Both the position numbers and the translations under genes were made by a program. The notes under the pieces are model-generated. The model did no database searches, was not told the origin of the DNA, and saw nothing but the letters and a program-made list of their open reading frames with translations. 36,953 nt of DNA from Candidatus Bathyarchaeota archaeon (GTDB lineage: Archaea; Thermoproteota; Bathyarchaeia; Bathyarchaeales; SOJC01): positions 1-36,953 of the forward strand of contig JAGLZW010000032.1 of assembly GCA_023131225.1 (NCBI GenBank), read 5' to 3'. Positions 331 through 30,107 of this stretch are shown one piece after another. The stretch's first letter is position 1. Every line of letters starts with the position of its first letter.

Positions 331-711
331 CTAGAGAGTTAGAAAGTATACAGCAAACATGAATACTCCAGTCAGCACCAAGATTAGTCCTGCACGAACA
401 AACCCTTTCGACTTCCAAGCGTCTTTTCTCATAGTCTCAGCGGGACCAACAGTGTCAGCACCATACACGGCCTCGGCAGTTGCAGACAAAATTGCCGCTT
501 TCTTGCTCCAAAGATTTATCCCCCCTCTACCTAGCAAAAGCAGCGAACCAATCAGCAAAAATCCAACTCCTTCAATGAACAATGCGTCTGTTGGAGAAAC
601 TATCTCATTTGAAGACAGCAATAAAACGTTAACGAAATAAGCCATAACCACAATTAGCGAGGAGATGCCCGCAATCCCTGCAACGTTAAAGAGAATGTGT
701 TTCTTTTTCAT
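331..711 (-). CDS. Small three-helix membrane protein, unknown function
   Basis: I do not recognise this 126-residue protein. It starts with a short basic segment (MKKKH). Hydrophobic segments lie near residues 8-31, 41-61 and 104-124, with a charged loop (about 62-100) between the second and third, so it should sit in the cytoplasmic membrane with three spans. No catalytic or metal-binding motif is visible. The ATG has no clear ribosome site directly before it. A stable RNA fold with a TATA-like box behind it precedes the gene at 748-855 and may form its 5' leader. It runs divergently from tRNA-Phe. Confidence 0.6.
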   Translation of the reverse strand: MKKKHILFNVAGIAGISSLIVVMAYFVNVLLLSSNEIVSPTDALFIEGVGFLLIGSLLLLGRGGINLWSKKAAILSATAEAVYGADTVGPAETMRKDAWKSKGFVRAGLILVLTGVFMFAVYFLTL

Positions 712-6990: not shown

Positions 6991-7241
6991 ATGGGGATTT
7001 GCGGAGTGATATCACCACTGGTCGCTGGTTCAAACCCGGCCCTCGGCACTTCACCCTCTTTCATAAAAAAAGCTAAACCAAGAAACTTTGAGCTTGCCTG
7101 TAGATTTTGAGTCTCCAGATAATCCAAAATGCTGTTTGGGCCTTGTTCGGTGATTCTTGAAAGATTTAATCTATGGGTTCTCGCCCTTTTGACAACGTTT
7201 TTTGGAAGGCAAAGATTTACTGGTATTCCTAACAAGCTCAA
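6936..7241 (-). pseudogene. Ribbon-helix-helix gene (remnant) reading into the tRNA-derived att site
   Basis: The first 50 or so residues, from a TTG at 7241 or 7235, read IPVNLCLPKNVVKRARTHRL and NLSRITEQ followed by NSILDYLE. This is the strand-helix-helix pattern of CopG/CcdA-like regulators. The frame then runs on antisense through the tRNA fragment, giving RAGFEPATSG, and on to a stop at 6936. GFEPATS peptides are typical products of antisense T-arm sequence. A small regulator gene abutting the att site is a feature of archaeal integrative elements as I know them. No convincing start context is seen, and ITEQGPNS departs from the expected helix, so it may be decayed. Confidence 0.45.
6986..7048 (+). 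repeat. Element-end repeat copy A with tRNA-Phe 3' fragment (att junction)
   Basis: The left part (6986-7020) contains AAAAATGGGGATTTGCGG and the palindrome GTGATATCAC. It is shared with the copy at 19464-19519 and with the reverse copy at 34095-34158. The right part (7021-7048) repeats tRNA-Phe 992-1019 with one mismatch, including T arm and 3' acceptor strand. This is the expected layout of a right-end junction, the end of an inserted element followed by the duplicated tRNA end. Because a ribbon-helix-helix gene of a second element starts directly after it, it looks like a junction between two stacked elements. Confidence 0.7.
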
Positions 7242-7288: not shown

Positions 7289-7702
7289 ATGTCCCATCTT
7301 TATCTATATTTCATAATCCTTACTTCAATGAGTCACCATATCAGTTTTGAAAGATATTTCCTGAGGGAAAAAAGCTTGATGGATAGTACAAAAAGAAAGC
7401 TTTTGTATTTACATATTATTCCTCTTTGTTGTTGGGCGTTCGATTTAATTACGACTCTATATGTTATAGATTATCTAGGCGTGGCGGGAGAAATGAACCC
7501 TCTAGGCTGGCCTTTAGGAGCTTGGGGAGCTTTGATATTCTATATCCCTACTCTTTTGTTCACCTACTTACTTTTGTTCAGAATTCAAAACAGATATTCT
7601 GGTAGGGTTGCAGCTTTAATAACAATAATGGCTTTGGGATTTGGAGTTATGAATTTGTTAGGGGGGTTGCATAACATTGGTGTTGCAAGTCTATATACTT
7701 GA
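7289..7702 (+). CDS. Small multi-span membrane protein, unknown function
   Basis: The 137-residue product is mostly hydrophobic after residue 37, with spans near 38-60, 77-98 and 107-127. FDLITTLYVIDYLG followed by EMNPLG resembles small membrane proteins with D-x2-TT and E-x-NP motifs (DUF5658-like); this is tentative. A TATA-like TTTTAAAATATA at about 7252-7263 would place the transcript start close to the ATG at 7289, favouring a leaderless message. The ATG at 7379 (residue 31, MDSTKRKLL) just before the first span is an alternative start. It is the first rightward gene inside the element. Confidence 0.6.
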   Translation: MSHLYLYFIILTSMSHHISFERYFLREKSLMDSTKRKLLYLHIIPLCCWAFDLITTLYVIDYLGVAGEMNPLGWPLGAWGALIFYIPTLLFTYLLLFRIQNRYSGRVAALITIMALGFGVMNLLGGLHNIGVASLYT

Positions 7703-7907: not shown

Positions 7908-9029
7908 ATGCAAAAGCTTGAGAAATACAGAAAACTGCTAGAAGAGTACAAGAGAAACCCCAAGTCTTCCAAGACGAGAACACACGAAGTTTTCATTCAT
8001 GACTTCCGCGAAGTTGAAGAGTGGTTAAGTAGCCGTCCAGAAGAAACTAGGAGAGGTTTCGCGAGTCGGCTTTTAAGATTCTGCATGACTATGAACGTTG
8101 AACCTGAAGAGTGGCGTAGCCTAGACAAGTTTAAGGCTAGAGATTTAGCGTGGAAGTATGTCCAAGCAAACGTGAGAGATCACCCATCCGTAGCGCGAAG
8201 CGACTTAACCGCGTTGAAAAGCTTCTACAGAAACAAAGATGGTGAAAGGCTTCCTTTCGACAGTGGCAGAGGCGGCAAACATTATTTCCACATGACCCTG
8301 AAGAAAGCTGCAATCGAGCACATACCTAACAAGAAGGAAATGTTCCAGATTATTGATATGGCTGGCAACCTTCGAGATAAAGCTCTCTTACTATTTCTCT
8401 TTCAAAGCGGCGTAAGAGTGAATGTTGTAGAGCACATAACTTATGGCGACGTGAAAGACCAGCTAGAGCAAAACACAATAACCTTGAAGATTACGCCACA
8501 ACTAGACTACAAGCTAAGAGGACGCGACATAAATTTCTATTACACCTTCATTAACGGCGAAGGCGCAACCGCTTTAAAGCGGTTCTGCGAGGTCAAACAT
8601 AAAGAGAGCAGCCCCAACAGACCATTATTCGCCACGTACGGAAATAAGGCGATAAGCCAAAGCTACGTGTGGGAAATAGTGAAGAAATGCGTGAAAAGAA
8701 CAGGGTTTGACCCGAAAACAATCACTACACACACCATAAGGAAAGCCTTCCGCAAGATTGTACGGCAAACAAACATTGACGACGATGATAAGGAACAACT
8801 GATGGGGCACGTGATTTCTGGAAGCCGCGCCGCGTACTACGACAGAAAAGACATGGATCTAATAAAGAAAGCATATCAACACTGCAACTTCACGCGGGAA
8901 ACGCCACATTCAGAAACGTTGAAGCTTAGAGATCAGCTAGAAACCGAGAGAGTTGAACGTGCAAGCCTTGAGAAGCGTATAGACGCGCTTGAAAGCTTGC
9001 TTCGCCAGTACATAAACGGGGAAGGCTGA
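7908..9029 (+). CDS. Tyrosine recombinase (integrase)
   Basis: The 373-residue enzyme would integrate and excise the element at the tRNA-Phe att site. The N-terminal part (about 25-110) looks like a SAM-like core-binding domain. The catalytic domain shows R170 (SGVRVNVV), a lysine in the beta hairpin (K202), the H275-x2-R278 box (THTIRKAF), H301 (LMGH) and the nucleophile Y310 or Y311 (RAAYYDRK). All essential positions are intact, so it is likely active. A C-terminal extension after residue 336 is a charged coiled coil (LETERVERASLEKRIDAL). The gene is complete and not split by the att site, unlike SSV-type integrases. Confidence 0.93.
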   Translation: MQKLEKYRKLLEEYKRNPKSSKTRTHEVFIHDFREVEEWLSSRPEETRRGFASRLLRFCMTMNVEPEEWRSLDKFKARDLAWKYVQANVRDHPSVARSDLTALKSFYRNKDGERLPFDSGRGGKHYFHMTLKKAAIEHIPNKKEMFQIIDMAGNLRDKALLLFLFQSGVRVNVVEHITYGDVKDQLEQNTITLKITPQLDYKLRGRDINFYYTFINGEGATALKRFCEVKHKESSPNRPLFATYGNKAISQSYVWEIVKKCVKRTGFDPKTITTHTIRKAFRKIVRQTNIDDDDKEQLMGHVISGSRAAYYDRKDMDLIKKAYQHCNFTRETPHSETLKLRDQLETERVERASLEKRIDALESLLRQYINGEG

Positions 9030-9387: not shown

Positions 9388-9511
9388 GTTTTCTTTCACC
9401 TTCTCCTATTGTTTATTTCTAACGTAAGATACTCTAAAAGTAATCCTACAATCTTCTATAGATATGCTTATATTTAAAACCATCTCCTATATTCAGTGAA
9501 AGGTTTTGAGT

Positions 9512-9667
9512 ATGCCTGTTAAGTTTGAGTTAAGCGTCATGCAAGTAGGAAACAGCTTGAGAATCACGATTCCTAAAGAAGTGTGTAAGCACCTAGAGAT
9601 AAAGAAGGGCGATGTGGTTAGGCTTTGGGTTGATAACGGCCACTTCATAGCAGAAAAGAAGGAATAA
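9512..9667 (+). CDS. AbrB/SpoVT-type regulator, 51 aa
   Basis: The protein reads MPVKFELSVMQVGNSLRITI, then PKEVCKHLEIKKGDVVRLWV, the swapped-hairpin AbrB fold with the VGNSLRITIP signature. It would act as a dimeric DNA-binding regulator. A TATA box (CTTATATTTAAAA, about 9467-9479) precedes it. The next gene follows two bases after its stop, so they form one unit. A second AbrB paralogue lies at 14423. Confidence 0.85.
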   Translation: MPVKFELSVMQVGNSLRITIPKEVCKHLEIKKGDVVRLWVDNGHFIAEKKE

Positions 9668-9669
9668 CC

Positions 9670-10164
9670 ATGCCTTTCGTGAACGCAAACGACCTTTGCT
9701 CTTCCTGTGAATGTAATATTCAGCAACCCAAAAACCGAGAAATAATTAGCAGTCTTTCAGACCTATCCACACTTCCAAGAGTTTGTATTTTCGGAGAGGA
9801 AAGGCAGAAAGGCAAAGTTGTTGAGTGTGACAAGTTTAGAGAAGTAGCAGGTGCTTTCAAAATGACATGCCCTCTTTGCAACGCTGAATTTTATGTCTAC
9901 TTTGACTTTGATGATGATACTAATAGAATAGATGTTGCTGAAGATAAGTGTCCAACATGTTACGCTAACCTTAGGGTTCAAGCAAGACAAGAAATCTTAA
10001 CACCAACTCTTAAGGAATGGAAAGAAACTGGGGAAATGACGAAGAAACTGGGGGCGGGATGGCGTGTCTATCCTAGTTGCAACAAAGCGCAAAGTGTAGC
10101 TGTTATGGCTAGAGATCAATTTAGGGAGTTTCCAGAGTTTTTAGAGCAAGAAAAGAAGGAATAG
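9670..10164 (+). CDS. Cys-rich zinc-ribbon-like protein, unknown function
   Basis: The 164-residue protein has three cysteine groups: C10-SS-C13-E-C15 near the start, MTCPLCNAEF (about 66-74), and DKCPTCYANL (about 92-101). The middle and last pairs together make a four-Cys zinc ribbon. The C-terminal third (WKETGEMTKKLG and beyond) is helical and lacks motifs. GAAGGA before the ATG is in the end of the AbrB gene, implying coupling. No enzyme activity can be inferred. Confidence 0.72.
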   Translation: MPFVNANDLCSSCECNIQQPKNREIISSLSDLSTLPRVCIFGEERQKGKVVECDKFREVAGAFKMTCPLCNAEFYVYFDFDDDTNRIDVAEDKCPTCYANLRVQARQEILTPTLKEWKETGEMTKKLGAGWRVYPSCNKAQSVAVMARDQFREFPEFLEQEKKE

Positions 10165-10167
10165 GCT

Positions 10168-10227
10168 TCTCCGCCGAGGCGGAGAGACTTTCAGTTCAAA
10201 TGAACTAGAAGTTAATCGCTAAGCGAT
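10168..10227. repeat. Three consecutive perfect inverted repeats
   Basis: TCTCCGCC-GA-GGCGGAGA (10168-10185), AGTTCA-AA-TGAACT (10193-10206) and ATCGCT-A-AGCGAT (10215-10227) follow each other within 60 bases. They start four bases after the zinc-ribbon gene and lie in the gap before the convergent leftward operon. The first could end transcription. Three in a row also suits a protein-binding array or an origin. Confidence 0.6.
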
Positions 10228-10426
10228 AGAGAATGTCTATACTTTTGCTGTCTTCTATGAACAAGTTTAACTTTTGGGGCAGTTAGGGTATGGGTAAACC
10301 ACTCAAAAACAGAAAGTTGCTACGGTGTGGCGAGTTGTCACTTTCTTGTCTAAAGATTACTACACATGGCCAATAACGCAAATTTTACCAAATTTTGTAA
10401 AACTTGCTGCACGCCACCGTTGAATT

Positions 10427-10609
10427 TTAGAATTGCATTTCACGCCAACAAGACACATGATAATACTTACGCCCATTCTTTGATTTTTTACAAACCACGG
10501 TTTCGCCAGCCTTTAGAGGCTTCATGCAACGCCTACAGAACCCCTTCCTTCCTACGCGGCTGAGGATTTGAGAGGTTAAAACCACATGTTTGTCAGTTTG
10601 AATTTGCAA
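10427..10609 (-). CDS. Small zinc-finger protein, 60 aa
   Basis: The C-terminal 40 residues contain FCRRCMKPLKAGETVVCKKS followed by KYYHVSCWREMQF. C24, C27, H51 and C54, with C41 as a further candidate ligand, suggest a treble-clef or LIM-like zinc finger. The N-terminal part has TDKHVVLTSQILSRVG. The start is TTG at 10609; AAGGTA before it overlaps the TAA of the 833-aa gene, so translation is coupled and it is the last gene of the leftward operon. Its role is unknown; nucleic-acid or protein binding is likely. Confidence 0.75.
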   Translation of the reverse strand: MQIQTDKHVVLTSQILSRVGRKGFCRRCMKPLKAGETVVCKKSKNGRKYYHVSCWREMQF

Positions 10610-10611
10610 TC

Positions 10612-13113
10612 TTACCTTTTCCTCGCTCGTCTTCGCTTAGTCTTCTTCACCTTTTTAGTCTTGCGCTTCTTCTTTTTGCGTGGCTTAGGAACAGAGAACC
10701 CAAACACCTTAGCGATCTGGCCTGCCGTCGCCATTTTGTGAGTGCGTTTGAACCATTCACCAAACAGGTCGTCTCGCCGTTTCCGTTTTGGTTTGAGCAA
10801 CTCTTGCCGAAATGAAAATCCCCATAACTGTGGTTGAAGTTGTGACTGTTTCATAAGTTGTTTTTGAAGCTGCACTTGAATTTGTGGCTGTATCTGCTCT
10901 TGTTTTAATAGTTGTGTTTCAAGTTGTTTCAGTAAGGAAGATTGCTTTAGGAATTGTTTTTGCGCTTGTTTCCCTAGTGAGCCAAGCCCAAGCACCTCTG
11001 ACGTTGTCAGCAGCGACTTAGGAACTTGCCCTACGGTGATAGCTTGTATGTCTGTTGGGTATGGCTTCAGCTTCAACGCGGCTAATTCTTTGCCGTAGAT
11101 TCTAGGGAACTCTTTAGGGTAAAGTATCGGGTACTGCTTGGGAATCGTCATAATCACGGTTTTCGCTTTGCGTTTAGGCTTCTGTCTCGGCGGGATTGTT
11201 TTCACGCCTAAAACGGATGCGGCACCAATTAAGCTTAAGCGCTTGCCTGTCTGCTTCGTAACTTGCATGGTTGTTTGCTTTACAATTAAAGCCATGCCTT
11301 TCCCTGAAGGCGTGACAACTCCTAGAGAACTCATTAAATCTACTGTGGCTTTTGAAGGTGTAAAAAGCCCTTTTTTCGGCACGACTCCTATTAAGCCTCT
11401 GGAAGGTGCAGAGGGAACGTAGTGGATCCGCCAAGCCTGAATCTGTATCCCATACTTGTATTCTTTAAAGAAGTCTGCTGCTACTCCGTGCCACTCATAC
11501 ATGGGAGAAGTCTTAACGGCTTTAGGTAGAAACTCCTTAACAGTTGCTCCCATCTCATACATAGGACTTGTTTTAACGAGTTGCTTCAAGCCAACGCCAT
11601 ACTGTTGAAGCTGTGGAACGCCAACTACTTTGAAGGCTAGTTTAGCTTCCTTTCCTATGCTGTAAACTGCCTCTCCCGTTTCCCACATTGGAGAAGCTTT
11701 GAAAAGCTGAGTTACTTTGCCTCCGAACTGTTTAATCTGTGGCACCGTTGCAGCCTTGAAATAAAGGTAGCGTTCTTTGCCTACACCGTAAACTGCTTTT
11801 CCCATTTCGTAGAAAGGAAAGGTCTTGAAGGTTTTAGGAGCGTAATAGGCTGCTGCTTCGCCCATTTCATAAAAAGGAGACGTTTTTAATAGTGAAACTG
11901 CACCTTTCTTTGCAGAGGGCAAATACACGTTTGACATGAGCATTTTCGCTTCTTTCGCTATGCTATAACCACGTTTGCCAGCTTCATAAAAAGGATAGAA
12001 CGGGGATGTCTCCCAAAGTTCTGGTGCAACTCTTGAAGCTGTGGCTTTAAACCCTGCCATTTTCGCTTGAGTGACCCATTTAACTTGTTTGCCAAGTAGG
12101 TACGATTCTTTTCCTGCTATGTAGAAAGGTGAGGTTCTAACAACGGTTGAAACGTAAGGCCTTACCGCTTTGCCCATCTCGTAAAACGGGAAGGTCTTAG
12201 CAGCAGAGGGAATGTATGGCTTTACGGATACTCCCCACTCGTACATGGGGGAAGTTTTGGCGATTTTAAAAGCGGGTTCTGCAACGTACTTGTAGGCTTT
12301 TGCCCCCACCGTTTTCGTGGCGACTACTGTTTTTTTGCCTGCCCATTTAGCACCACTCCAAGCTGTACCTACCACTTTTGAGATTCCTTTTCCAACTAAA
12401 ATGTCCCCGTAGAGGCTGCCTGCAATTTCAAGCGGGTGCCACTCTTTAACTTCCTCTAAGCCACTTGGATCACCTAGCAACGCAGAAATTGCAGCTCCCG
12501 ACGCAACTACAGGAGGCTTCCCCAACCCTTTCACGCCCGCGATTGTCGCAACTGTGTAAACAAAACTTTCTCCAGATCCAAAGGCTCTAGCAGCAAATTT
12601 TCCAGAAGCCGCACCCGTTTTCACCCGCTCCCATTCGAGAGGACTAAAGCCTTCACCACGCATCATTTTCTCAAACTGTTCTTCTTGCTCCTTATGCTGC
12701 CATCCAGTGAAAAAGTCTAAGACTTGTTCCGTGATTGACTTGGGTAGTGCTGGTTCTTTTACTGTTGGTGGTTGGAATGTTATGTCGTAAAAAGTTGTTC
12801 TCTCAGGCTTCGCAGCTACAGCCACCACGTCGAAGATTGTTGCTTCTTTTTTCTGAGCTTTAGCAACAACCTCTTCAAGCTCGTCACGCTTCGTAACCGA
12901 TAGAATCATACTACCCGTTGGAATATCAGTGGATACGCCATAACGAGCTTCTAATTCTTCCTTTGTAGTTGGTGGCTTACCTGCTGCCACCACCATATCG
13001 TACATGTCAATTTTGCCACTCTTATCAATGTCCAAGTATTCTTTGTATCGTGGATCGCCTCGGCGTGCGCCGTAAGCAGCTTTAATTTCACTTGTAGTTG
13101 GTACTTGAGACAA
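10612..13113 (-). CDS. Giant repeat protein with dockerin-like loop and basic tail
   Basis: I do not recognise the family of this 833-residue protein. Residues 19-45 (GDPRYKEYLDIDKSGK, then IDMYDM) carry a dockerin/EF-hand calcium loop: D28, D30, S32, G33, I35, D39. Nine copies of a TSP[FM]YExG motif begin at 286, 306, 326, 368, 410, 430, 472, 514 and 534, so the steps are always 20 or 42 residues. The longer units also share a segment such as YSIGKEAKLAFK. Residues 714-762 are rich in Gln, Leu and Lys. The last 35 residues are almost all Lys and Arg. The start is a TTG three bases after the stop of the preceding gene. A structural, tape-measure-like or DNA-organising role in a virion or plasmid is an inference. 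Confidence 0.85.
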   Translation of the reverse strand: MSQVPTTSEIKAAYGARRGDPRYKEYLDIDKSGKIDMYDMVVAAGKPPTTKEELEARYGVSTDIPTGSMILSVTKRDELEEVVAKAQKKEATIFDVVAVAAKPERTTFYDITFQPPTVKEPALPKSITEQVLDFFTGWQHKEQEEQFEKMMRGEGFSPLEWERVKTGAASGKFAARAFGSGESFVYTVATIAGVKGLGKPPVVASGAAISALLGDPSGLEEVKEWHPLEIAGSLYGDILVGKGISKVVGTAWSGAKWAGKKTVVATKTVGAKAYKYVAEPAFKIAKTSPMYEWGVSVKPYIPSAAKTFPFYEMGKAVRPYVSTVVRTSPFYIAGKESYLLGKQVKWVTQAKMAGFKATASRVAPELWETSPFYPFYEAGKRGYSIAKEAKMLMSNVYLPSAKKGAVSLLKTSPFYEMGEAAAYYAPKTFKTFPFYEMGKAVYGVGKERYLYFKAATVPQIKQFGGKVTQLFKASPMWETGEAVYSIGKEAKLAFKVVGVPQLQQYGVGLKQLVKTSPMYEMGATVKEFLPKAVKTSPMYEWHGVAADFFKEYKYGIQIQAWRIHYVPSAPSRGLIGVVPKKGLFTPSKATVDLMSSLGVVTPSGKGMALIVKQTTMQVTKQTGKRLSLIGAASVLGVKTIPPRQKPKRKAKTVIMTIPKQYPILYPKEFPRIYGKELAALKLKPYPTDIQAITVGQVPKSLLTTSEVLGLGSLGKQAQKQFLKQSSLLKQLETQLLKQEQIQPQIQVQLQKQLMKQSQLQPQLWGFSFRQELLKPKRKRRDDLFGEWFKRTHKMATAGQIAKVFGFSVPKPRKKKKRKTKKVKKTKRRRARKR

Positions 13114-13116
13114 GGA

Positions 13117-13485
13117 CTAACCCTTCTTCTCTTCTTTTGCACAGAAAAAAGCAGTGCCAGCACCAAGAATCAAAAAGTAAGAATCGGTTTCCCAAATCGG
13201 CGTTCCAAACTTATCTGAGAGTTCAATAATCGTTTTGAAATTCACGTAAATTTGGGTCTGGCCTGGCTCAAGAACCAAGGTTTTAACCTGATAGATGACT
13301 GGCTTGAAATTTTCTTTCTTAACGCGGTGAACCCCATCATAATTCGTGGCATAGAAAGCGTGTGGGCTTTCATAGATTTTGTTGGAAATCTTTTTGAGTT
13401 GATCAAGGCTTTTTAAGTCGAACAAAACCTCGCCGTCGAGGTGGAGTGTCTCGATTTGAATGGCTTTGGGTTTTCTCAGTCTCAC
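13117..13485 (-). CDS. 122-aa protein of the leftward element operon
   Basis: The sequence is not recognised. It starts MRLRKPKAIQIETLHLDGEV, has a helical middle (LDQLKKISNKIYES) and then a beta-rich half with VIYQVKTLVLEPGQTQIYVN and ETDSYFLILGAGTAF. The C-terminal half could form a beta sandwich, as in many small structural proteins; that is only an impression. The GTG start overlaps the TGA of the AT-hook gene by four bases (GTGA), with GGAGAGGT upstream, so the genes are coupled. Confidence 0.72.
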   Translation of the reverse strand: MRLRKPKAIQIETLHLDGEVLFDLKSLDQLKKISNKIYESPHAFYATNYDGVHRVKKENFKPVIYQVKTLVLEPGQTQIYVNFKTIIELSDKFGTPIWETDSYFLILGAGTAFFCAKEEKKG

Positions 13486-13613
13486 TTTTTACCTCTCCTC
13501 TTCTTCCTCTTTTTCTTTCGTTCGCAGTTCTGTCGTCTCCAGTACTTCCTCAAGATTTTCTGAGCTTTGCTTCCCGACTTGAGTCTAGGCCTTCCACGTT
13601 TCTTCTTCGCCAC
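13482..13613 (-). CDS. AT-hook basic miniprotein, 43 aa
   Basis: The product begins AKKKRGRPRLKSG, a canonical AT-hook core (RGRPR), and continues KAQKILRKYWRRQNCERKKK with more Lys and Arg to the end. Over half the residues are basic. It should bind the minor groove of AT-rich DNA or condense the element's DNA. The start is a GTG with GGGAGTAG before it, and its end overlaps the next gene by four bases. It is the first gene of the leftward operon, directly behind two tandem operators. Confidence 0.72.
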   Translation of the reverse strand: MAKKKRGRPRLKSGSKAQKILRKYWRRQNCERKKKRKKRRGKK

Positions 13614-13614
13614 A

Positions 13615-13683
13615 TTTCACTACTCCCAGTGGTGAAACAGTGTTTACCACTATTAGTGGTGAAAAGGTTGCTTATAGATTTTA
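13615..13683 (-). promoter_or_regulatory. Promoter with two tandem palindromic operators
   Basis: TTTCACTACT-CCC-AGTGGTGAAA (13615-13637) and TTTACCACT-ATT-AGTGGTGAAA (13643-13664) are two near-identical inverted repeats with their right arms 27 bases apart. A minus-strand TATA-like TCTATAAG lies at about 13672-13681, so the start site falls within the second repeat. A dimeric repressor bound there would shut off the AT-hook operon. The winged-helix or AbrB proteins encoded next door are candidates. Confidence 0.6.
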
Positions 13684-13772
13684 CCAAGTAAAATAGATTT
13701 TTTCAAGAACAACATTTGCACAAGTGTGCAAATGGTCTAATCTGGGTACATGTACCTCTATGTTGAATGTGT

Positions 13773-14333
13773 CTATTCATCTGGAAAGGCAAACTTGTAG
13801 AGATCCTTAGCTGCCTTCTGAATACCCCGTTTTACAGATTCAACTTCATGAGCTGCTCTCTTAATCTCTCGGCGTTCACTACTTGTAAACCGCGCCCAAT
13901 GACTCCCTATCAATGTTAGCCAATCTTCTGCTTTTGCAACTCTTCCATAGCCTAAGGTTGCTTTTCCAGCTAACCGCAAAAGCTTTGCCATTGTTTTCTG
14001 TGAGAGCAAATTGGTGAGTTGCAAGTATTCTTTGTAGTTGGGTAAATGTTTTTCATAGTTTATTAGCGCTTGATGGAGTATTTTTTCGTCGCCGTAAGCC
14101 ATGGCGTAAGCCATGCCTTTCTCTGTGAGCCTATACTCCTTGATTAATCCGCGTCTAGTTTTCTTTATTACTATACCTGTTATATAGTTCCTTTCTTCTA
14201 GGGAATGCACCGCTTCATTAATTGATTTGTAATCTTTGGCTAGTCTTTTAGACATTGGCTTTATCAACAAGTCGGGGGATCCAGCAAGAAGTTCTAAAAT
14301 GCTATGTTGGTTTATTGCTTTTTTCTTAAGCAT
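13773..14333 (-). CDS. Winged-helix transcription regulator
   Basis: The 186-residue protein has an N-terminal winged helix: HSILELLAGSPDLLIKPMSK, then YKSINEAVHSLEERNYITGI and a wing ending EYRLTEKGMAYAM. The rest is helical and charged (LSQKTMAKLLRLAGKATLGY, then SSERREIKRAAHEVES) and may dimerise. It probably regulates the element's own genes. It is divergent from the AbrB gene at 14423 across a 90-base region filled with inverted repeats, and its promoter region also faces the leftward operon downstream. The ATG lies within CACCATATG, part of a repeated motif. Confidence 0.8.
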   Translation of the reverse strand: MLKKKAINQHSILELLAGSPDLLIKPMSKRLAKDYKSINEAVHSLEERNYITGIVIKKTRRGLIKEYRLTEKGMAYAMAYGDEKILHQALINYEKHLPNYKEYLQLTNLLSQKTMAKLLRLAGKATLGYGRVAKAEDWLTLIGSHWARFTSSERREIKRAAHEVESVKRGIQKAAKDLYKFAFPDE

Positions 14334-14422: not shown

Positions 14423-14611
14423 GTGGTTATAAAAATGCACAAGGAAACTAGAAAAATCATCCGTGTCGGCAACAGCCTAGCCGTTACAATGCCGCCATCA
14501 TGGCTGCGATACTTCAATTTGACGGATAAAGATCGCGTTACGGTACTATCAGATGGTAATGTCGTCATTCAACCCATAAAAAGGGAGGTGGAACCCAACG
14601 AAAATAAGTGA
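14423..14611 (+). CDS. AbrB/SpoVT-type regulator, 62 aa
   Basis: After a short leader segment the protein reads IIRVGNSLAVTMPPSWLRYF and continues LTDKDRVTVLSDGNVVIQPI, the AbrB fold with the VGNSLAVT signature. GAGGTG lies ten bases before the GTG at 14423; an ATG at 14435 (residue 5) is also possible. It is the first gene of the rightward replication operon and is likely a regulator of it. It resembles the AbrB protein at 9512 in fold but not closely in sequence. Its 3' end overlaps the next frame and contains that gene's ribosome site. Confidence 0.83.
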   Translation: MVIKMHKETRKIIRVGNSLAVTMPPSWLRYFNLTDKDRVTVLSDGNVVIQPIKREVEPNENK

Positions 14612-15106: not shown

Positions 15107-17632
15107 TTGGACAAAGACTTACAGAGCTATATTGATTTCTACCTTAAGCTTAGCTTCGCAATCGTCCCAGCAATATATGGCAAAAAAAGACCTAGTGTTG
15201 AATGGAAAAAATACCAAGAAAAAACGCCTTCAGAAAAACAAATTAGAGAATGGTTTAGCGGCAACAAGCCTCAAAACATTGCCGTTGTCTGTGGTGTACC
15301 TAGTGCTAATCTTGTGGTGTTGGACTTTGACGACCCAACAGTTTACCCGCGATTCTTTGACACATCACAAATAGAGAAAGAAACGTTAGTGGTGAAAACT
15401 GGGTCTGGAAAGACTCATGTTTATCTACGTTCCAAGAATCCTATTGCAAGCTTTACGATTCCACAGTTAAAGCTCGAAATACGTTCCGACAAAAACTTGG
15501 TGATAGCACCACCAAGTAAACACCCGGGTGGGGAACTCTACACCTTCGTAAACCAAGCTGATACGCTCATTCTAGTAGATGATTTGGAAGAAACTGTGTG
15601 GCGAAAGGCCGAGCAGCTAGGAGTTAAAAGACCTAGAGATTTCATCTTAGAAGATTCGAGTTACAGAGGTAAACAAGTTTACGAAGGCGGAGATCCGCCT
15701 TGCATTGAAGTTATGCTTAGAGGCGTGAAAGAGGGAACACGCAATCATGTTGCAGTACGCCTTTGCGCTTATTGGTTATGGTTTAGGCGAGAACAGAAAG
15801 ACAAGGTTAAAAGCCTTCTTAATGGTTGGAACGCGCGAAACGAGCCTCCACTTCCAAAAAGCGAATTAAAGGACATTTTCAAAGCAGCCTTAGGACTCCA
15901 GCGGAGTTATGGCTGCCCTAAAAACCAAGCTTGGTGCAACATCGAAAAATGCGCTTTGAAGAGAAGCCAACTCCTAAGGAGAAGGGCAGAAGAAGAAGCA
16001 GAGCAGATTCTAAATAACCCATCGATGTTGGATGCCCTAACTCCACACTTGGACAACATTGTAGCTGGTGAAGACGCAAACAAGAAACTGACGTTCATAC
16101 TCTGCTTAAGTGGAAAATGTAAAGACCCGAAAATGAAGCAGATCGTACTCTTTAAAGCTGAAGCAGGCGCAGGCAAAACCCGATTAATGCGCATAGCTAA
16201 CGCCTTTAAAACCAAGTCTGTAGGGAGATTCACAAGTCACGCTTTAGATTATTCCGATTTGCAAGACTTCGAGATTTTGAAGCTGAAAGAACTGGGTGCT
16301 ATGGATCAAGAATTTCAGGGCGTTTCAACACTCAAATTTGTTAGTAGTGATGATGAAGGCTATACCGTTGAATGCACAGAGCGTGACGAACGCGGAAGAT
16401 TTACAACAGGACAACATAAAGTTCCGCCTATTACTCTACTCAGCAGCACTACGCGCATAAGCTTGGATCCACAGTTTGAACGTCGCGCTTGGATAGTAAA
16501 CCCTGATGAGTCAGAGGAACAAACAGAACGCATTCGCAAGTGGAAGGCCAAACATGAAAGAGAAAAATCGTTAGTTGCTTTGGCTTTGATAAAGGAGACA
16601 AGCGCCGATCATAGTATGCGCATTCTGAAAGCTGTCGCTGAAAAGCTTGAGCCTTTAGACGTGGTTTTGCCTTTTCCAGATACGGTTACGAAGATTCTGA
16701 AAAGCAAACGACTTAGGATTAGAGGCGACTTCGATAAGGTGCTCTCACTTGTTAAGCTTCACGCTTTATTATATCAACGCCACTTACCCAAAGCTAAAGC
16801 CAACGGCAAAAAAGTTGTTTTTGTAACACCAAAATCTGCTATTGAAGCCCTAGAGCTTGCGGAGAAACCATTCGTAACTATGACTACGGAGTTAGGGGGA
16901 CGTAGCCGAAAAATCATTAAAACCCTTAAGAAAGAAGGCTTGGACAAAAAAAACTTAACAATAAACCATGAGACCCGAGAGAAAATTGCTGTCCAACTGA
17001 ACAGAAGCGACGCGACTGTCTACAAGTTTTTCAAAGAATGGTGCAGCGCTGGATACATGAGCATGACAAAAGACACAACTAAGAAAGGCAGCCCCGTGAC
17101 TTTCAAGCTTCTCCACGATATAAGCTTCGTTGAAGGAAAGAACGCCGTTACATTCGACGATTTAAACGCAAAGACTAAGATAGGCTTGGACATGCAAAAG
17201 GAAGCAGAAATGTGGCTAGATGGCATTATCGGCGAAATCACCCTCACGGATGGGTATTCCGAAAAGACGTTGAAGCAAGCAATGGTTTTCGACACTTCTC
17301 AAATTAGCCCATCCGTAGAGCAAGTTTTGACGAGAATGCCAACTGGGCAAGAACCAAGCGTATCTAGCGAAACTGGGCAAGCGTTAGTCTTTGCGTCGAA
17401 AACGCAGACAGTAAATAACCCCATTCAAAAAAATGATATACTAGACGGAGAAAAACTGCTTTCAATTATCGAGTTAGATGAGCCTCATAAAGGGAAATGT
17501 GTAAAGTGTGGTTTGCAAGCAACTCTCTATTATCAAATCATGAATTTCAAAGGTCAATGGGGTCATGTCTGCAATGACTGCGCAGCTAATCTTCAGAAGG
17601 GAATGAAAGCGCGGCGCGAGGTGATTTCATGA
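15107..17632 (+). CDS. Replication protein: primase-polymerase with P-loop ATPase
   Basis: Residues 1-160 form a prim-pol domain, with D73-F-D75 (VVLDFDDP), H104 in SGKTHVYL and the IAPPSKHPGGELY segment near 133-145. A Cys cluster, C270, C277 and C282 (YGCPKNQAWC), follows. The second half carries a Walker A at 352-359 (EAGAGKTR), an acidic stretch at 396-403 and SSTTRISLD, which resembles the sensor region of a helicase-type ATPase. The C-terminus ends in a CxxC...CxxC zinc finger (KCVKCG, VCNDCA). Prim-pol plus helicase is the layout of pRN1-type plasmid replication proteins that prime, extend and unwind. The TTG start has AGGTGA nine bases upstream. Confidence 0.87.
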   Translation: MDKDLQSYIDFYLKLSFAIVPAIYGKKRPSVEWKKYQEKTPSEKQIREWFSGNKPQNIAVVCGVPSANLVVLDFDDPTVYPRFFDTSQIEKETLVVKTGSGKTHVYLRSKNPIASFTIPQLKLEIRSDKNLVIAPPSKHPGGELYTFVNQADTLILVDDLEETVWRKAEQLGVKRPRDFILEDSSYRGKQVYEGGDPPCIEVMLRGVKEGTRNHVAVRLCAYWLWFRREQKDKVKSLLNGWNARNEPPLPKSELKDIFKAALGLQRSYGCPKNQAWCNIEKCALKRSQLLRRRAEEEAEQILNNPSMLDALTPHLDNIVAGEDANKKLTFILCLSGKCKDPKMKQIVLFKAEAGAGKTRLMRIANAFKTKSVGRFTSHALDYSDLQDFEILKLKELGAMDQEFQGVSTLKFVSSDDEGYTVECTERDERGRFTTGQHKVPPITLLSSTTRISLDPQFERRAWIVNPDESEEQTERIRKWKAKHEREKSLVALALIKETSADHSMRILKAVAEKLEPLDVVLPFPDTVTKILKSKRLRIRGDFDKVLSLVKLHALLYQRHLPKAKANGKKVVFVTPKSAIEALELAEKPFVTMTTELGGRSRKIIKTLKKEGLDKKNLTINHETREKIAVQLNRSDATVYKFFKEWCSAGYMSMTKDTTKKGSPVTFKLLHDISFVEGKNAVTFDDLNAKTKIGLDMQKEAEMWLDGIIGEITLTDGYSEKTLKQAMVFDTSQISPSVEQVLTRMPTGQEPSVSSETGQALVFASKTQTVNNPIQKNDILDGEKLLSIIELDEPHKGKCVKCGLQATLYYQIMNFKGQWGHVCNDCAANLQKGMKARREVIS

Positions 17633-17802: not shown

Positions 17803-18759
17803 ATGAGCTTGAAAGATCAACCTAAACTTGTTCAAGACATAATTTTTGCCATTGATAATGACCGTTATATGTGGATGCCTATTTGGGGTGAAGCAAGAAC
17901 GGGGAAGACTACGCTTGCTTTGCTGTTGATGTTTAAGGTCTATCAAGACTGGGATAAGGTTTTGGGCGCTGTCATTTTCGATTTGAACGGTTTGCTTTAC
18001 AAGATGCAGAAAGGTGAACCCGCGCTTTTCCCAACTGTAGTGAAGCCCGTTCACATGAGGGTTCCGATTCTTCTTTGGGACGACTTTGCAGCTAAGTCGG
18101 GAAAGGCTCAGACTCAGCACGAAAGAGCCTGGGATGTGTTCAAGGGTGCGTTTGACACGTTAGGCACTAGAATCTCTGTTCTTCTTGCAACTATGGTTAA
18201 TCCGCGAAGCCCAACAGAACAACTACTACAGAAGTACACGCATGAAATCTTAATCCACATCCGCGAAGATGGGAAAAGAGTTTACAAATACGATAAATGT
18301 CGGATGCAGCAGGACTTCGTTGGATGGAGAAGCCGACAGCGTAAAAGGTGGTTAGAGTCACAAGTGTTTGGCAAGGTTCCGTTAGATGTGTTCAAACAGT
18401 ATGACGAGATGAGGACAAGCCTAGTTGACGAAGTGTTCGTGAGCATGCAGGACGCTATGGCAGAGGACACAATAGATCGTCTAATGAAGAGAGTGCAACC
18501 CATAGACTATGAACTACTGTTCTTAATTGAGCAGTCGGGCATGGTTAATTACAGGGGAATAATGAAGTCTTTAGGCAATTCTGGAAAACAAAGTCTAACA
18601 AGGTGCAAAGCTAGAGGACTAGTAACACCAGTGCGACGTTCCCAATCCTACTACGTTTACGATATCACAGACCTGGGGCTTGACTTGTTAAAATCAAAGC
18701 AAGTACAAGACGGAAAACAAGCACAAGCATCACAAAAATCAAAATATAACATTGATTAA
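17803..18759 (+). CDS. P-loop ATPase with C-terminal winged helix
   Basis: The 318-residue protein has Walker A GEARTGKTT (29-37) and Walker B VPILLWDDF (87-95). TRISVLLATMVNP (about 132-144) matches the sensor strand. The fold looks like a DnaC/IstB-like or packaging-type ATPase; the fit is too loose to choose. Residues about 240-300 look like a winged helix (LLFLIEQSGMVNYRGIMKSL, then LVTPVRRSQSYYVYDITDLG). It may load the helicase, partition the element or pump DNA. GAAGGAAG precedes the ATG. It closes the rightward operon, followed by hairpins at 18763-18836. Confidence 0.78.
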   Translation: MSLKDQPKLVQDIIFAIDNDRYMWMPIWGEARTGKTTLALLLMFKVYQDWDKVLGAVIFDLNGLLYKMQKGEPALFPTVVKPVHMRVPILLWDDFAAKSGKAQTQHERAWDVFKGAFDTLGTRISVLLATMVNPRSPTEQLLQKYTHEILIHIREDGKRVYKYDKCRMQQDFVGWRSRQRKRWLESQVFGKVPLDVFKQYDEMRTSLVDEVFVSMQDAMAEDTIDRLMKRVQPIDYELLFLIEQSGMVNYRGIMKSLGNSGKQSLTRCKARGLVTPVRRSQSYYVYDITDLGLDLLKSKQVQDGKQAQASQKSKYNID

Positions 18760-26689: not shown

Positions 26690-27115
26690 AACTTCACCAT
26701 CTTTTTAAATAAACGTTAGCGGATCTGGTGTCGAGATGTTTATAGTGTTTACAATAAAAAATTTGTTTAATCATTTGCTGCAAATCTGACCTTCCGTGTC
26801 TCTTTGGATCCAAATAAGTTTACTTCGTAGCTGTCTAAAAAAAGCGTTTTAGCGCATGCGGTTTAAGTTTTCAATAAAAAGTATAGCAGCTACTTGTTGG
26901 TTAAATAAGTTTTATCACGTGAAAACGTAGCGCGCGGGGGTTACAAATGTAGAAGTTTGTAGCATGTTTGTTGAATCATCCGTCGCATAGATTATAATTA
27001 TCAATTCTTCATTGTAGCCGAAAGATTGGGCGCGTGCCTTTGTTAGACTTGTGAACATTTGTGAGTGCGTACCGTTTTTCTTTGAAAGCAGCATCAAGGT
27101 AAACTTTTACAATGG
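26690..27115. other. Intergenic region between nrdJ and the DtdA gene
   Basis: Both neighbours are on the minus strand. The part next to nrdJ holds its TATA box. TACAAA and TTTGTA around 26943-26962 form a small inverted repeat. A 60-codon minus-strand frame at 26915-27097 has no ribosome site and is not called. No conserved RNA is recognised. Confidence 0.4.
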
Positions 27116-27937
27116 CTAAACTTTTTGTGTTTGCACTCCAGCTTCTTCTGAAGCCTTAACTAGTTTTGTCTTGTCTGCGCCCTTTATTCCCTTCCAGTCC
27201 AAAGTAACAGTTTCAACTTTCTCCAGTGTTCGCTCTACACATTGCCTGATAGTTTTAGCGTCAACATGTGAAATAGCATATTTCGGAATTATGTGGCCAA
27301 AGGCAAAGTCGTCTTCTAGAGCCATACGTGTAAACTTTTGGCTATAATGAGGTCCGCCGATGCCAACCGCTACTATTGAATTTCTGGATTTTCTAAGAAT
27401 TGGAGCCATCGCTGCGTGAGCCACCGCTTCTGCGGCTTTCATGTCTTTCCATTGTGTTGGTGAGCTTCCAAGTTCCACGAACATTGTCGCAATGTTGAGG
27501 GAAGGTCCGTGATGGGTGCATTCGTATGAAACTTGGTAGTCTAGGCTGTGTGTGTTTTTTTGTTCCGCCATTTCCAGTAAGGCTTCTTTCATTGCGTTTG
27601 CCGGTGCTATTGAGATTCGGTTTGGTAGGCCGCCTTTTTGCGCTTGAGCGGTTAGGTTGCCTGGCGTGTGAACTGAGAGTGTTGGTGTGCCGCTTTTGCT
27701 GCTGTGACGCGAAATGTATATTATAAGCTGTGGGTTGAAGTGGTTTAGGATCGATTGGTAGTAGATTGCTTCTTCGTCGATTGTTACAAGCTTCACTTCG
27801 TTGTCGCTGAGTGTCTTATGGTATACTGGGTTGCTGTGGAATTTCTCCTCTGATTCCTTGAAGTCGTAGTGGACTAACAGTTGCTGTCTAATGTTCATGC
27901 TTGCAACGTCTTTTGTAGAAGCAACTATGAGAATCAT
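27116..27937 (-). CDS. dtdA: D-aminoacyl-tRNA deacylase, archaeal type
   Basis: The 273-residue enzyme removes D-amino acids from mischarged tRNA. Features of the archaeal/plant DtdA family (GEK1-like) are the start MILIVASTKDVASMNIRQQL, IIYISRHSSKSGTPTLSVHT with SRH, YECTHHGPSL and VAVGIGGPHYSQKFT. The His residues in these motifs are the likely zinc or catalytic ligands. ATG at 27937 is chosen because GGAG lies eight bases upstream and family members begin there; frames from 27958 or 27973 add 7 to 12 unconserved residues. It is divergent from the carbamoyltransferase gene. Confidence 0.9.
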   Translation of the reverse strand: MILIVASTKDVASMNIRQQLLVHYDFKESEEKFHSNPVYHKTLSDNEVKLVTIDEEAIYYQSILNHFNPQLIIYISRHSSKSGTPTLSVHTPGNLTAQAQKGGLPNRISIAPANAMKEALLEMAEQKNTHSLDYQVSYECTHHGPSLNIATMFVELGSSPTQWKDMKAAEAVAHAAMAPILRKSRNSIVAVGIGGPHYSQKFTRMALEDDFAFGHIIPKYAISHVDAKTIRQCVERTLEKVETVTLDWKGIKGADKTKLVKASEEAGVQTQKV

Positions 27938-28045
27938 CTGTTGCGCTCCATTACTCATTTTTGAGGTTGCCAATTGGGTTTAAGCGTTTCCATAAAACTT
28001 ATATTATCTAGCTTCGGCTTCTTGAAAAAGATTGAGGACGCGGCA

Positions 28046-28963
28046 ATGAGGCACTTGATTAATTTTAAAGATTGGGCGCCACAAGATGTTGAGTTTCTTA
28101 TTGACAAGGCGATTGAGATTAAGAAAGAACCGGCGAAGTACCGGAATGCTTTGCAAGACAAGTCTTTAGTGATGATTTTTCAGAAAACATCTACTCGAAC
28201 ACGTGTCTCCTTCGAAGTCGCTATGACTCAGCTTGGCGGACATGCCATCTACATGGACTGGATGACAACCCAGTTCAAACTGGCGGACATAAGCGACGAG
28301 GTTAAGTATCTTTCGCGTAATGTTGACTGCATTATGGCGCGGCTGAAAAGGAATGCTGACTTGATGAAGATGTCTTCAGCGTCAAGGGTGCCGGTAATTA
28401 ATGGTTGTGACGAGAAATATCATCCTTGCCAAGCCATCGCTGATTTGATGACAGTAAAAGAGCACAAAGGCAAGCTAAAAGGGTTGAAGATGGTTTACAT
28501 CGGTGTTCACAATAATGTCTGTAACTCTTTGATTGAAGCGTGCACCATGACTGGCATGCAAATTACAACCGTAACACCGATTACACATGAACCTGCACAA
28601 GACAAGGAGTTGCTTGAGAAAGCGAAAAAAACAGGACTGTATCATGTGACACTTGATGTTAAGGAAGCTGTTAGGGATGCGGATGCTGCATATACTGACA
28701 CGTGGGTTGACATGGAACTTTTCCTTGACCCTAAATTTAAAGAAGAAAAGGAAAAACGCATCAAGCTGATGCTGCCCTATCAAATCAATAGTGAGTTGAT
28801 GGAAGGCGGTAATGCTCTGATAATGCATGACATGCCTATCCACCGAGGCTACGAAATAAGCGGCGAGATGGTAGAAGCGCCTAACAGCGTAATCTACGAG
28901 CAGGCTGAGAATAGGCTGCACAGCGAAAAGGCGATCCTGCTAAAACTACTTAACAAAATATGA
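28046..28963 (+). CDS. Carbamoyltransferase of the OTC/ATC superfamily, altered amine-site motifs
   Basis: The 305-residue enzyme has an intact carbamoyl-phosphate site: S49-T-R-T-R53, the DWMTTQFKLADISDE loop and H126-P-C-Q129. The amine-substrate site differs from ornithine carbamoyltransferase. The usual SMG is D222-M-E224 (DTWVDME), and the usual HCLP is H261-D-M-P264. It would be annotated as ArgF, but the two changes suggest another amine acceptor or an archaeal variant, so no symbol is given. The ATG at 28046 has GAGG eight bases upstream; the frame extends further back without conserved sequence. The MFS gene follows 34 bases later. Confidence 0.85.
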   Translation: MRHLINFKDWAPQDVEFLIDKAIEIKKEPAKYRNALQDKSLVMIFQKTSTRTRVSFEVAMTQLGGHAIYMDWMTTQFKLADISDEVKYLSRNVDCIMARLKRNADLMKMSSASRVPVINGCDEKYHPCQAIADLMTVKEHKGKLKGLKMVYIGVHNNVCNSLIEACTMTGMQITTVTPITHEPAQDKELLEKAKKTGLYHVTLDVKEAVRDADAAYTDTWVDMELFLDPKFKEEKEKRIKLMLPYQINSELMEGGNALIMHDMPIHRGYEISGEMVEAPNSVIYEQAENRLHSEKAILLKLLNKI

Positions 28964-28997
28964 CAGATTCCTTTTATCAGTTAGTAAGGTAAGGCAT

Positions 28998-30107
28998 TTG
29001 TGGAAAGAATCTACGAAAGTTCTAGCAGTCACTGTTGCCATCTTCTTTTTTACAAATAGTTTGTCTGGCGCGTTCCTTCCGATTTACCTCAAAGATTCAG
29101 GACTAAGCATTCTCGAAATTATTGTTGTTTTGTTTTTCACGTTTCTAGTCGTTGGGTTGCTGCCTATAGTTTTGATGAGAGTTACGAGGCATTTTGAACG
29201 GATAATAAGCTTTGGCATCCTCTTTACCCTACTTTTCTATGTTGCTCTTATTTACGTCAAGAACCCTGTCTTTCTCGGACTAGCGTATGGACTGGGCATA
29301 GCAACTTTTTGGCCAAGCTTCAACCTTCTCCTGTTTAGGCTCAGCGACGCCAGCGAACGAGCGGTGATGATAAGCCTGCTTTACGTAGCTATACCTTCAA
29401 TAACTGGCATAATCAGCCCTGCAGTCGGAGGCTTTGTTATCGAAACCTTTGGCTTCACAAACCTTTTTACGGCTTCAATTCTTCTGTATTTGGTTGCTTT
29501 CATCGCTTCGTTGAAGATACGCTACGAGCCAGAAGCACAGAAGTTTTCGATTCCTAAGAGCCGATTGTTCACGATTTTTTTGCTGACATTTGTTCTCTTC
29601 GGTATGTCAGAGTCCTACTGGCTCGCCTACCCACTCTTTGTTTTCAGCGTTTCGTCAACTATCTTGAACATGGGGTTTGTGGTTGCAGCTAGTGCGTTGC
29701 TGATTTCCATTATAACAGTTGGGATTGGCAAAATTTCTGATGTTAAGAGAACGCGTGTGGAATTCACTATGGCAAGCGCGATTCTATACGCCCTTTGGTA
29801 TTTCATACTTCCCCAAGTTTCTAGTATGATAGAGATAGTAGCACTCTCTTTACTCTCAGGCTTCGCTAGCGCCTTTGCTCTCTCTTGGTTTGCTTTCTAC
29901 GGTGATTCCTTCGAGAGAAAATATCATGCTAGCATCTTAGTAATGATGGAGGTCGGCTTAATGGTTGGCAGAATCTTTAACCTCGTTCCCACATATTTCT
30001 TCGTAACAACGTATGACTATACGCGCTATTTTGTGGTACTAGGCGTTGTCTCGATACTTCTCATTCCGCTTTTTATCCTATCAAGAAACTACATTAAGAA
30101 CTCTTAG
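28998..30107 (+). CDS. Major facilitator superfamily transporter
   Basis: The 369-residue protein is hydrophobic throughout, with about 11 or 12 membrane spans. FFFTNSLSGAFLPIYLKDSG at the start and FGLAYGLGIATFWPSFNLLL-like repeats later follow the MFS pattern. The loop between spans 6 and 7 (IRYEPEAQKFSIPKSRL) is charged and cytoplasmic. The substrate cannot be read. The TTG start at 28998 has AAGGTAAGG upstream. It probably shares a message with the carbamoyltransferase gene. Confidence 0.85.
   Translation: MWKESTKVLAVTVAIFFFTNSLSGAFLPIYLKDSGLSILEIIVVLFFTFLVVGLLPIVLMRVTRHFERIISFGILFTLLFYVALIYVKNPVFLGLAYGLGIATFWPSFNLLLFRLSDASERAVMISLLYVAIPSITGIISPAVGGFVIETFGFTNLFTASILLYLVAFIASLKIRYEPEAQKFSIPKSRLFTIFLLTFVLFGMSESYWLAYPLFVFSVSSTILNMGFVVAASALLISIITVGIGKISDVKRTRVEFTMASAILYALWYFILPQVSSMIEIVALSLLSGFASAFALSWFAFYGDSFERKYHASILVMMEVGLMVGRIFNLVPTYFFVTTYDYTRYFVVLGVVSILLIPLFILSRNYIKNS

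Follow-up and report, generated by a model that had tools for sequence, protein, structure and literature searches.

A large repeat-bearing basic protein in a satellite-like integrated element with Prim-Pol and NTPase genes

What might a large, repeat-bearing protein do for the small integrated element that encodes it? The small integrated elements of uncultured archaea are for the most part cryptic, and the one found in the window analyzed here (the whole 36,953-nt stretch of a Candidatus Bathyarchaeota genome) poses the question through an 833-aa protein that a preliminary description had read as a possible scaffold, tape-measure or surface-linking protein of a virus-like or conjugative element.

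Gene content and borders of the element

The integrase and Prim-Pol genes near which this protein had been placed are both present (PF00589 and PF09250 matches; Table 1). Plasmids of Sulfolobus and Thermococcus encode similar Prim-Pols, and that of pSSVx aligns with the window protein (28.7% over 129 aa, E 5e-7), while the NTPase, which is encoded on the opposite strand and 5 kb from the 833-aa gene, aligns with a second pSSVx protein (21.7% over 240 aa, E 4e-8) and has a relative in another genome of the class (G185) that matches many fusellovirus proteins. The 833-aa gene itself, listed with a TTG start codon, belongs to a minus-strand cluster of four genes encoding, in order, proteins of 43, 122, 833 and 60 aa, the junctions of which are either overlaps or gaps of 2-3 bases. 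The 60-aa product is 27% identical to an 81-aa protein encoded near the NTPase gene of G045 (E 4e-4 in a small database). A third operator-like palindrome (13713-13734) lies upstream of the cluster, in addition to the pair listed in Table 1, and these palindromes are absent elsewhere in the window.

Among the element proteins scanned with Pfam, PHROGs and a check for membrane segments, no capsid or fusogen gene was recognized, and neither was a convincing match to capsid, tail or terminase proteins obtained, which leaves the tape-measure role without support. In the same set, the lack of any Pfam or PHROG match to a VirB4/HerA-type ATPase or to a relaxase leaves a conjugative element without support. 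Membrane-like segments were detected in only two of the non-overlapping ORFs of at least 40 aa in the element, namely a 137-aa ORF (7289-7702) and an antisense ORF. The former is located between the tRNA-Phe copy and the integrase gene and presents a sub-threshold match to DUF5658, an annotation likewise carried by one SSV1 protein.

The 3' end of tRNA-Phe occurs as a direct repeat (993-1019 and 7022-7048), the two copies of which are 6 kb apart and might represent an older island or a rearranged end of the element. The integration history is not simple, since host-like genes (a UbiA-like prenyltransferase, a PadR-like regulator and a copper-type P-ATPase) lie between the copies. The right end of the element yielded no third copy, and the right border is therefore not fixed; further right, the ribosomal and SRP genes of the window are, by eye, of archaeal type. 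In G101, which harbors the closest Prim-Pol relative, the integrase gene likewise adjoins tRNA-Phe. A contig of that genome (G101:C68, loci L087 and L088) carries two Prim-Pol genes (9437-11893 and 26950-29406) of equal score and identity, 17.5 kb apart, as if an element had been duplicated in tandem.

Table 1. Features of the element and of the 833-aa protein, in window coordinates unless residues are indicated.
Feature	Position	Strand	Basis
tRNA-Phe 3'-end copy, 27 nt, 1 mismatch; probable attachment-site copy	7022..7048	+	tRNA-Phe at 945-1021
Tyrosine integrase	7908..9029	+	PF00589 E 7e-13; phrog_216
AbrB/MazE-like DNA-binding protein	9506..9667	+	PF04014 E 1e-9
164-aa Cys-rich protein, putative zinc ribbon	9670..10164	+	ORF/Pfam scan
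60-aa putative zinc protein, directly downstream of 833-aa gene	10427..10609	-	ORF listing
833-aa repeat-bearing basic protein	10612..13113	-	ORF listing; repeats; no family match
Lys/Arg-rich tail, residues 766-833, pI 12	10615..10818	-	Composition, charge ranking
Gln-rich stretch, residues 711-765	10819..10983	-	Composition
Repeat zone, residues 286-555	11449..12258	-	Repeat spacing, self-alignment
Two 104-residue superunits	Residues 326-429 and 430-533	-	Self-alignment
N-terminal region; single dockerin-like EF-hand loop at residues 28-39	12973..13113	-	Dockerin_1 score below cut-off; host surface protein matches
122-aa protein, family not recognized, 3 bases before 833-aa gene	13117..13485	-	Pfam/PHROG scans
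43-aa very basic protein, overlapping start of 122-aa gene	13482..13613	-	ORF listing
Two palindromic 22-nt operator-like repeats before four-gene cluster	13616-13637 and 13643-13664	.	Chance expectation 0.05 and 0.00
186-aa winged-HTH-like regulator	13773..14333	-	Weak MarR/PadR/HVO_A0114 matches
Second AbrB/MazE-like protein	14423..14611	+	PF04014 E 3e-9
Prim-Pol replication protein, pRN1/pSSVx type	15107..17632	+	PF09250 E 2e-20
AAA+ NTPase, SSV B251 (DnaA-like) type	17803..18759	+	phrog_5484 E 2e-14

Architecture of the 833-aa protein

The repeat zone contains nine [TA][SF]P[FM][YW] motifs, the initial T or A of which falls at residues 287, 307, 327, 369, 411, 431, 473, 515 and 535, as compared to at most one such motif in 5000 shuffles of the sequence. 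The successive steps (20, 20, 42, 42, 20, 42, 42 and 20 residues) bear out the earlier observation that every step is of 20 or 42 residues. The nine sites reported in the preliminary description also stand, but its numbers (286 and so on) mark the K, R or E one residue before the T/A, and the exact TSP[FM]YExG form that it gave for all nine is found in only three (287, 411 and 515), making "strictly periodic" a little strong. Across the units, the proline is invariant, Y or W is present in all nine and T in eight, so that the fixed core consists of the proline, then F or M, and then an aromatic residue. The largest hidden period of the zone is 104 residues (42+42+20), and an ungapped alignment of residues 296-436 to the sequence 104 residues further on scores 170 (shuffles, at most 49); the repeats are thus assembled in larger steps, as tandem superunits of this length. 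At the DNA level, silent sites of the repeat copies have diverged to near saturation and the motif cores are better kept. The values for these cores (pN 0.28 versus pS 0.79, approximate given the short segments) suggest that selection on the protein maintains the motif.

The remaining compositional features had also been correctly anticipated. The stretch described as a Gln-rich helical zone near residues 714-762 is indeed rich in glutamine (18 of the 55 residues in 711-765), and the basic C-terminal tail holds 30 K/R residues against 4 D/E, at the end of a gradient along which the pI rises from 6 at the N-terminus to 12. Its C-terminal net charge (+20) ranks first among the 448 compared ORFs of 250 aa or more, and the nucleic-acid binding by the tail proposed earlier is plausible. 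Neither a signal-like start nor a transmembrane segment was detected (best 19-residue hydropathy, 1.28), and the hydrophobic moment in an amphipathic-helix test does not exceed that of shuffled sequences, leaving binding to a membrane surface without support. Two AlphaFold runs without alignment returned mostly helical models of very low confidence (pLDDT 40.6 and 37.8), which are uninformative.

The predicted EF-hand loop is found at residues 28-39 (DIDKSGKIDMYD), and residues 10-46 match, down to E 2e-6, dockerin-like modules at the C-termini of long surface proteins encoded by the same genome and its relatives. The outcome named in advance as evidence against an element protein, a clear match to a host family already known, is limited to the first 50 residues. 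The likeness to type I dockerins lies in a single DxDxSGxxDxxD loop, whereas these modules have two EF-hand-like loops; moreover, the Dockerin_1 score (16.1 bits) is below the cut-off of 22.9, and the 833-aa protein has no export signal.

Only this 37-residue module matched when the whole protein was searched against Pfam, PHROGs, NCBIfam, PADLOC, PDB, phage records and IMG/VR, as well as against 201 relatives and 398 genomes of the phylum (two overlapping sets), and one scan of genome contigs yielded only dockerin-like matches, in Prevotella and relatives. For the body of the protein, no homolog was obtained in these libraries or in several hundred related genomes. As the preliminary description had stated, no known family fits: it is an orphan with, as far as the searched libraries show, a previously undescribed repeat. 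A query with the mid-region against 257 genomes of the class returned weak, chance-like matches (e.g. to SRP54-like and glutamate-dehydrogenase-like proteins), and a match in G068 to residues 609-685 contains several stops and was of no further use.

Counterparts in known and related elements

The closest known parallel is pSSVx, a satellite plasmid-virus with a fusellovirus as its helper (PMC9608457; PMC4158269) and carries an AbrB-like regulator (PMC9608457). The fusellovirus proteins B251 and A154, which are common to this satellite, have been implicated in replication and packaging (PMC9608457). Like the window element, pSSVx (NC_010011) combines a Prim-Pol, a B251-type NTPase and an AbrB-like regulator, and its ORFs include no membrane proteins, just as the window element shows no coat-type proteins. 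However, pSSVx is only 5.7 kb long and presents no visible integrase and no large repeat protein, both of which the window element has, and its NTPase gene adjoins an A154-like gene with no counterpart in the window: no A154-like match was obtained among the proteins compared, and no candidate ORF lies between the Prim-Pol and NTPase genes. Small integrated Prim-Pol elements have also been proposed as satellites (PMC4158269); these are likewise small and carry an integrase, a primase-related protein and genes shared with fuselloviruses but no capsid genes, and the window element departs from them in its pRN1/pSSVx-type Prim-Pol match and in the added large repeat protein. Judged by its genes, the element is a variant of these small, satellite-like Prim-Pol and NTPase elements.

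With the Fuselloviridae (SSV1 and relatives), the window element shares the NTPase family and a tyrosine integrase, but not, as far as could be detected, the VP1/VP3 coat proteins with two hydrophobic helices, and no notable PHROG structural match was obtained. In SSV1, the end-filament protein VP4 begins with a signal-like stretch and carries membrane segments at its C-terminus, whereas the 833-aa protein has neither. A spindle-virus-like contig of the same class (L126; G214:C26, 3-2210 and 2231-3472) served as a positive control for coat-protein detection, since one of its 75-aa proteins matches phrog_11172, a virion structural protein (E 1e-8). Besides the NTPase, this contig encodes a pair of 75-aa proteins bearing two hydrophobic segments, together with a 736-aa protein that has a signal-like start and a membrane segment at its C-terminus, and several membrane proteins are encoded both by it and by SSV1. 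The likeness to the Pleolipoviridae and Thalassapleoviridae is limited to a distant NTPase (24-35% identity over partial length), and neither a VP4-like fusogen nor a VP3-like membrane protein of the Pleolipoviridae was found in the window element, again with no PHROG match.

Large proteins comparable to that of the window do accompany the NTPase elsewhere. G185, of the same class and another family, encodes a protein of 1063 aa that contains internal repeats of its own and ends in a basic tail; an overlapping zinc protein gene and then the NTPase follow. In G120, a protein of 890 aa, also basic-tailed but with different repeats, is encoded ahead of small proteins and the NTPase. In net charge of the last 40 residues, the window, G185 and G120 proteins rank first, second and fourth among the distinct proteins of 448 long ORFs, and no such large basic-tailed repeat protein occurs in about a dozen Prim-Pol neighborhoods without the NTPase. 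The co-occurrence nonetheless amounts to three elements. The three proteins show no significant alignment among themselves, and the best common stretch spans 13 residues (P[AS]LPKS[IL]TEQxL[DE], P about 0.03). Hence, what they have in common is architecture and position rather than a proven family and, sequence homology not being significant, convergence is possible. A match to the G120 protein in G119 turned out to be a PAS-type kinase.

Among the other NTPase loci, those of G112 and G155 are truncated where their contigs end, G035 and G124 present weak matches, and G100 and G214 have other gene sets. In G045:C1, a decayed element (L037) flanked by host genes retains only the NTPase gene (172768-173631) and genes for a 116-aa protein and a zinc protein, and elsewhere on this contig lies a further, short fragment of an NTPase gene (263032-263109). 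Scans of IMG/VR with the NTPase, the G185 protein and the Prim-Pol revealed no useful archaeal element.

Candidate roles of the large protein

Taken together, the absence of signal-like and membrane segments, the C-terminal charge, the tight gene cluster and its dedicated palindromes lead us to infer, tentatively, that the 833-aa protein may be a cytoplasmic DNA-binding scaffold. The pSSVx matches of the Prim-Pol and the NTPase and the similar large proteins of G185 and G120 would associate it with the NTPase during condensation, segregation or packaging of the DNA of the element. The Lys/Arg tail would grip this DNA, the proline-marked repeats would fold into a helical rod or platform of defined length and the N-terminal calcium-type loop would contact a partner. 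The NTPase would then use the scaffold to condense, segregate or package the DNA after excision, in the last case possibly into the particle of a helper virus, as with pSSVx, and the operator-like sites would hold the four-gene cluster off until the element is mobilized. Counting against this reading are the position of the NTPase gene, on the opposite strand and 5 kb away, the small number of elements (three) behind the co-occurrence and the lack of significant homology among their large proteins.

The main rival, to which we give somewhat less credence, is that the protein serves plasmid maintenance and has no role in transfer: acting like a nucleoid or partition scaffold, it would tether the element DNA or its replication complex inside the cell. 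A Prim-Pol replicon devoid of recognizable capsid, fusogen or conjugation genes would suit such a function, as would a basic-tailed protein without membrane segments. Nevertheless, no ParA/ParB-type partner was found among the proteins tested, the large size and the repeats are unusual for a partition protein, and the dedicated operator-like sites suggest conditional expression.

It is less likely that the protein is structural, for instance forming the core or the scaffold of the element's own viral or vesicle particle, the coat proteins of which have diverged beyond detection. The NTPase family is that of spindle-shaped viruses and pleolipoviruses, and large repeat-bearing proteins recur with it; yet, against the several membrane proteins of SSV1 and L126 and the detectable structural protein of the latter, the window offers a single candidate (137 aa) and G185 none. 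A fast-evolving passenger, such as an anti-defense or conflict protein unrelated to packaging or maintenance, is possible, if at low probability, and would fit the orphan status in all libraries and related genomes; against it stand the embedding of the gene in a tight cluster with small DNA-binding-like proteins and the recurrence of similar architectures with the same NTPase family. Finally, a surface or host-interaction role, in which the dockerin-like module would join a host protein complex, is quite unlikely in spite of the resemblance to host surface proteins, because the module has one loop only, scores under the Pfam cut-off and is N-terminal rather than C-terminal, in a protein with a very basic tail and no signal peptide or membrane anchor, which also leaves the surface-linking function first proposed without support.

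Returning to the scaffold reading, it would be a bold generalization, and one that we consider rather doubtful, that repeat-bearing basic-tailed large proteins are a recurrent and hitherto undescribed component of capsid-less archaeal elements with B251-type NTPases, forming with them a scaffold-plus-NTPase system by which elements that have no coat of their own would condense and move DNA. Should the large protein and its NTPase partner indeed cooperate, they would offer a testable handle on how coat-less elements survive and spread, and, if true, this would provide a clue to the substrate of the B251-type NTPase, which is common to spindle-shaped viruses, pleolipoviruses and satellites.
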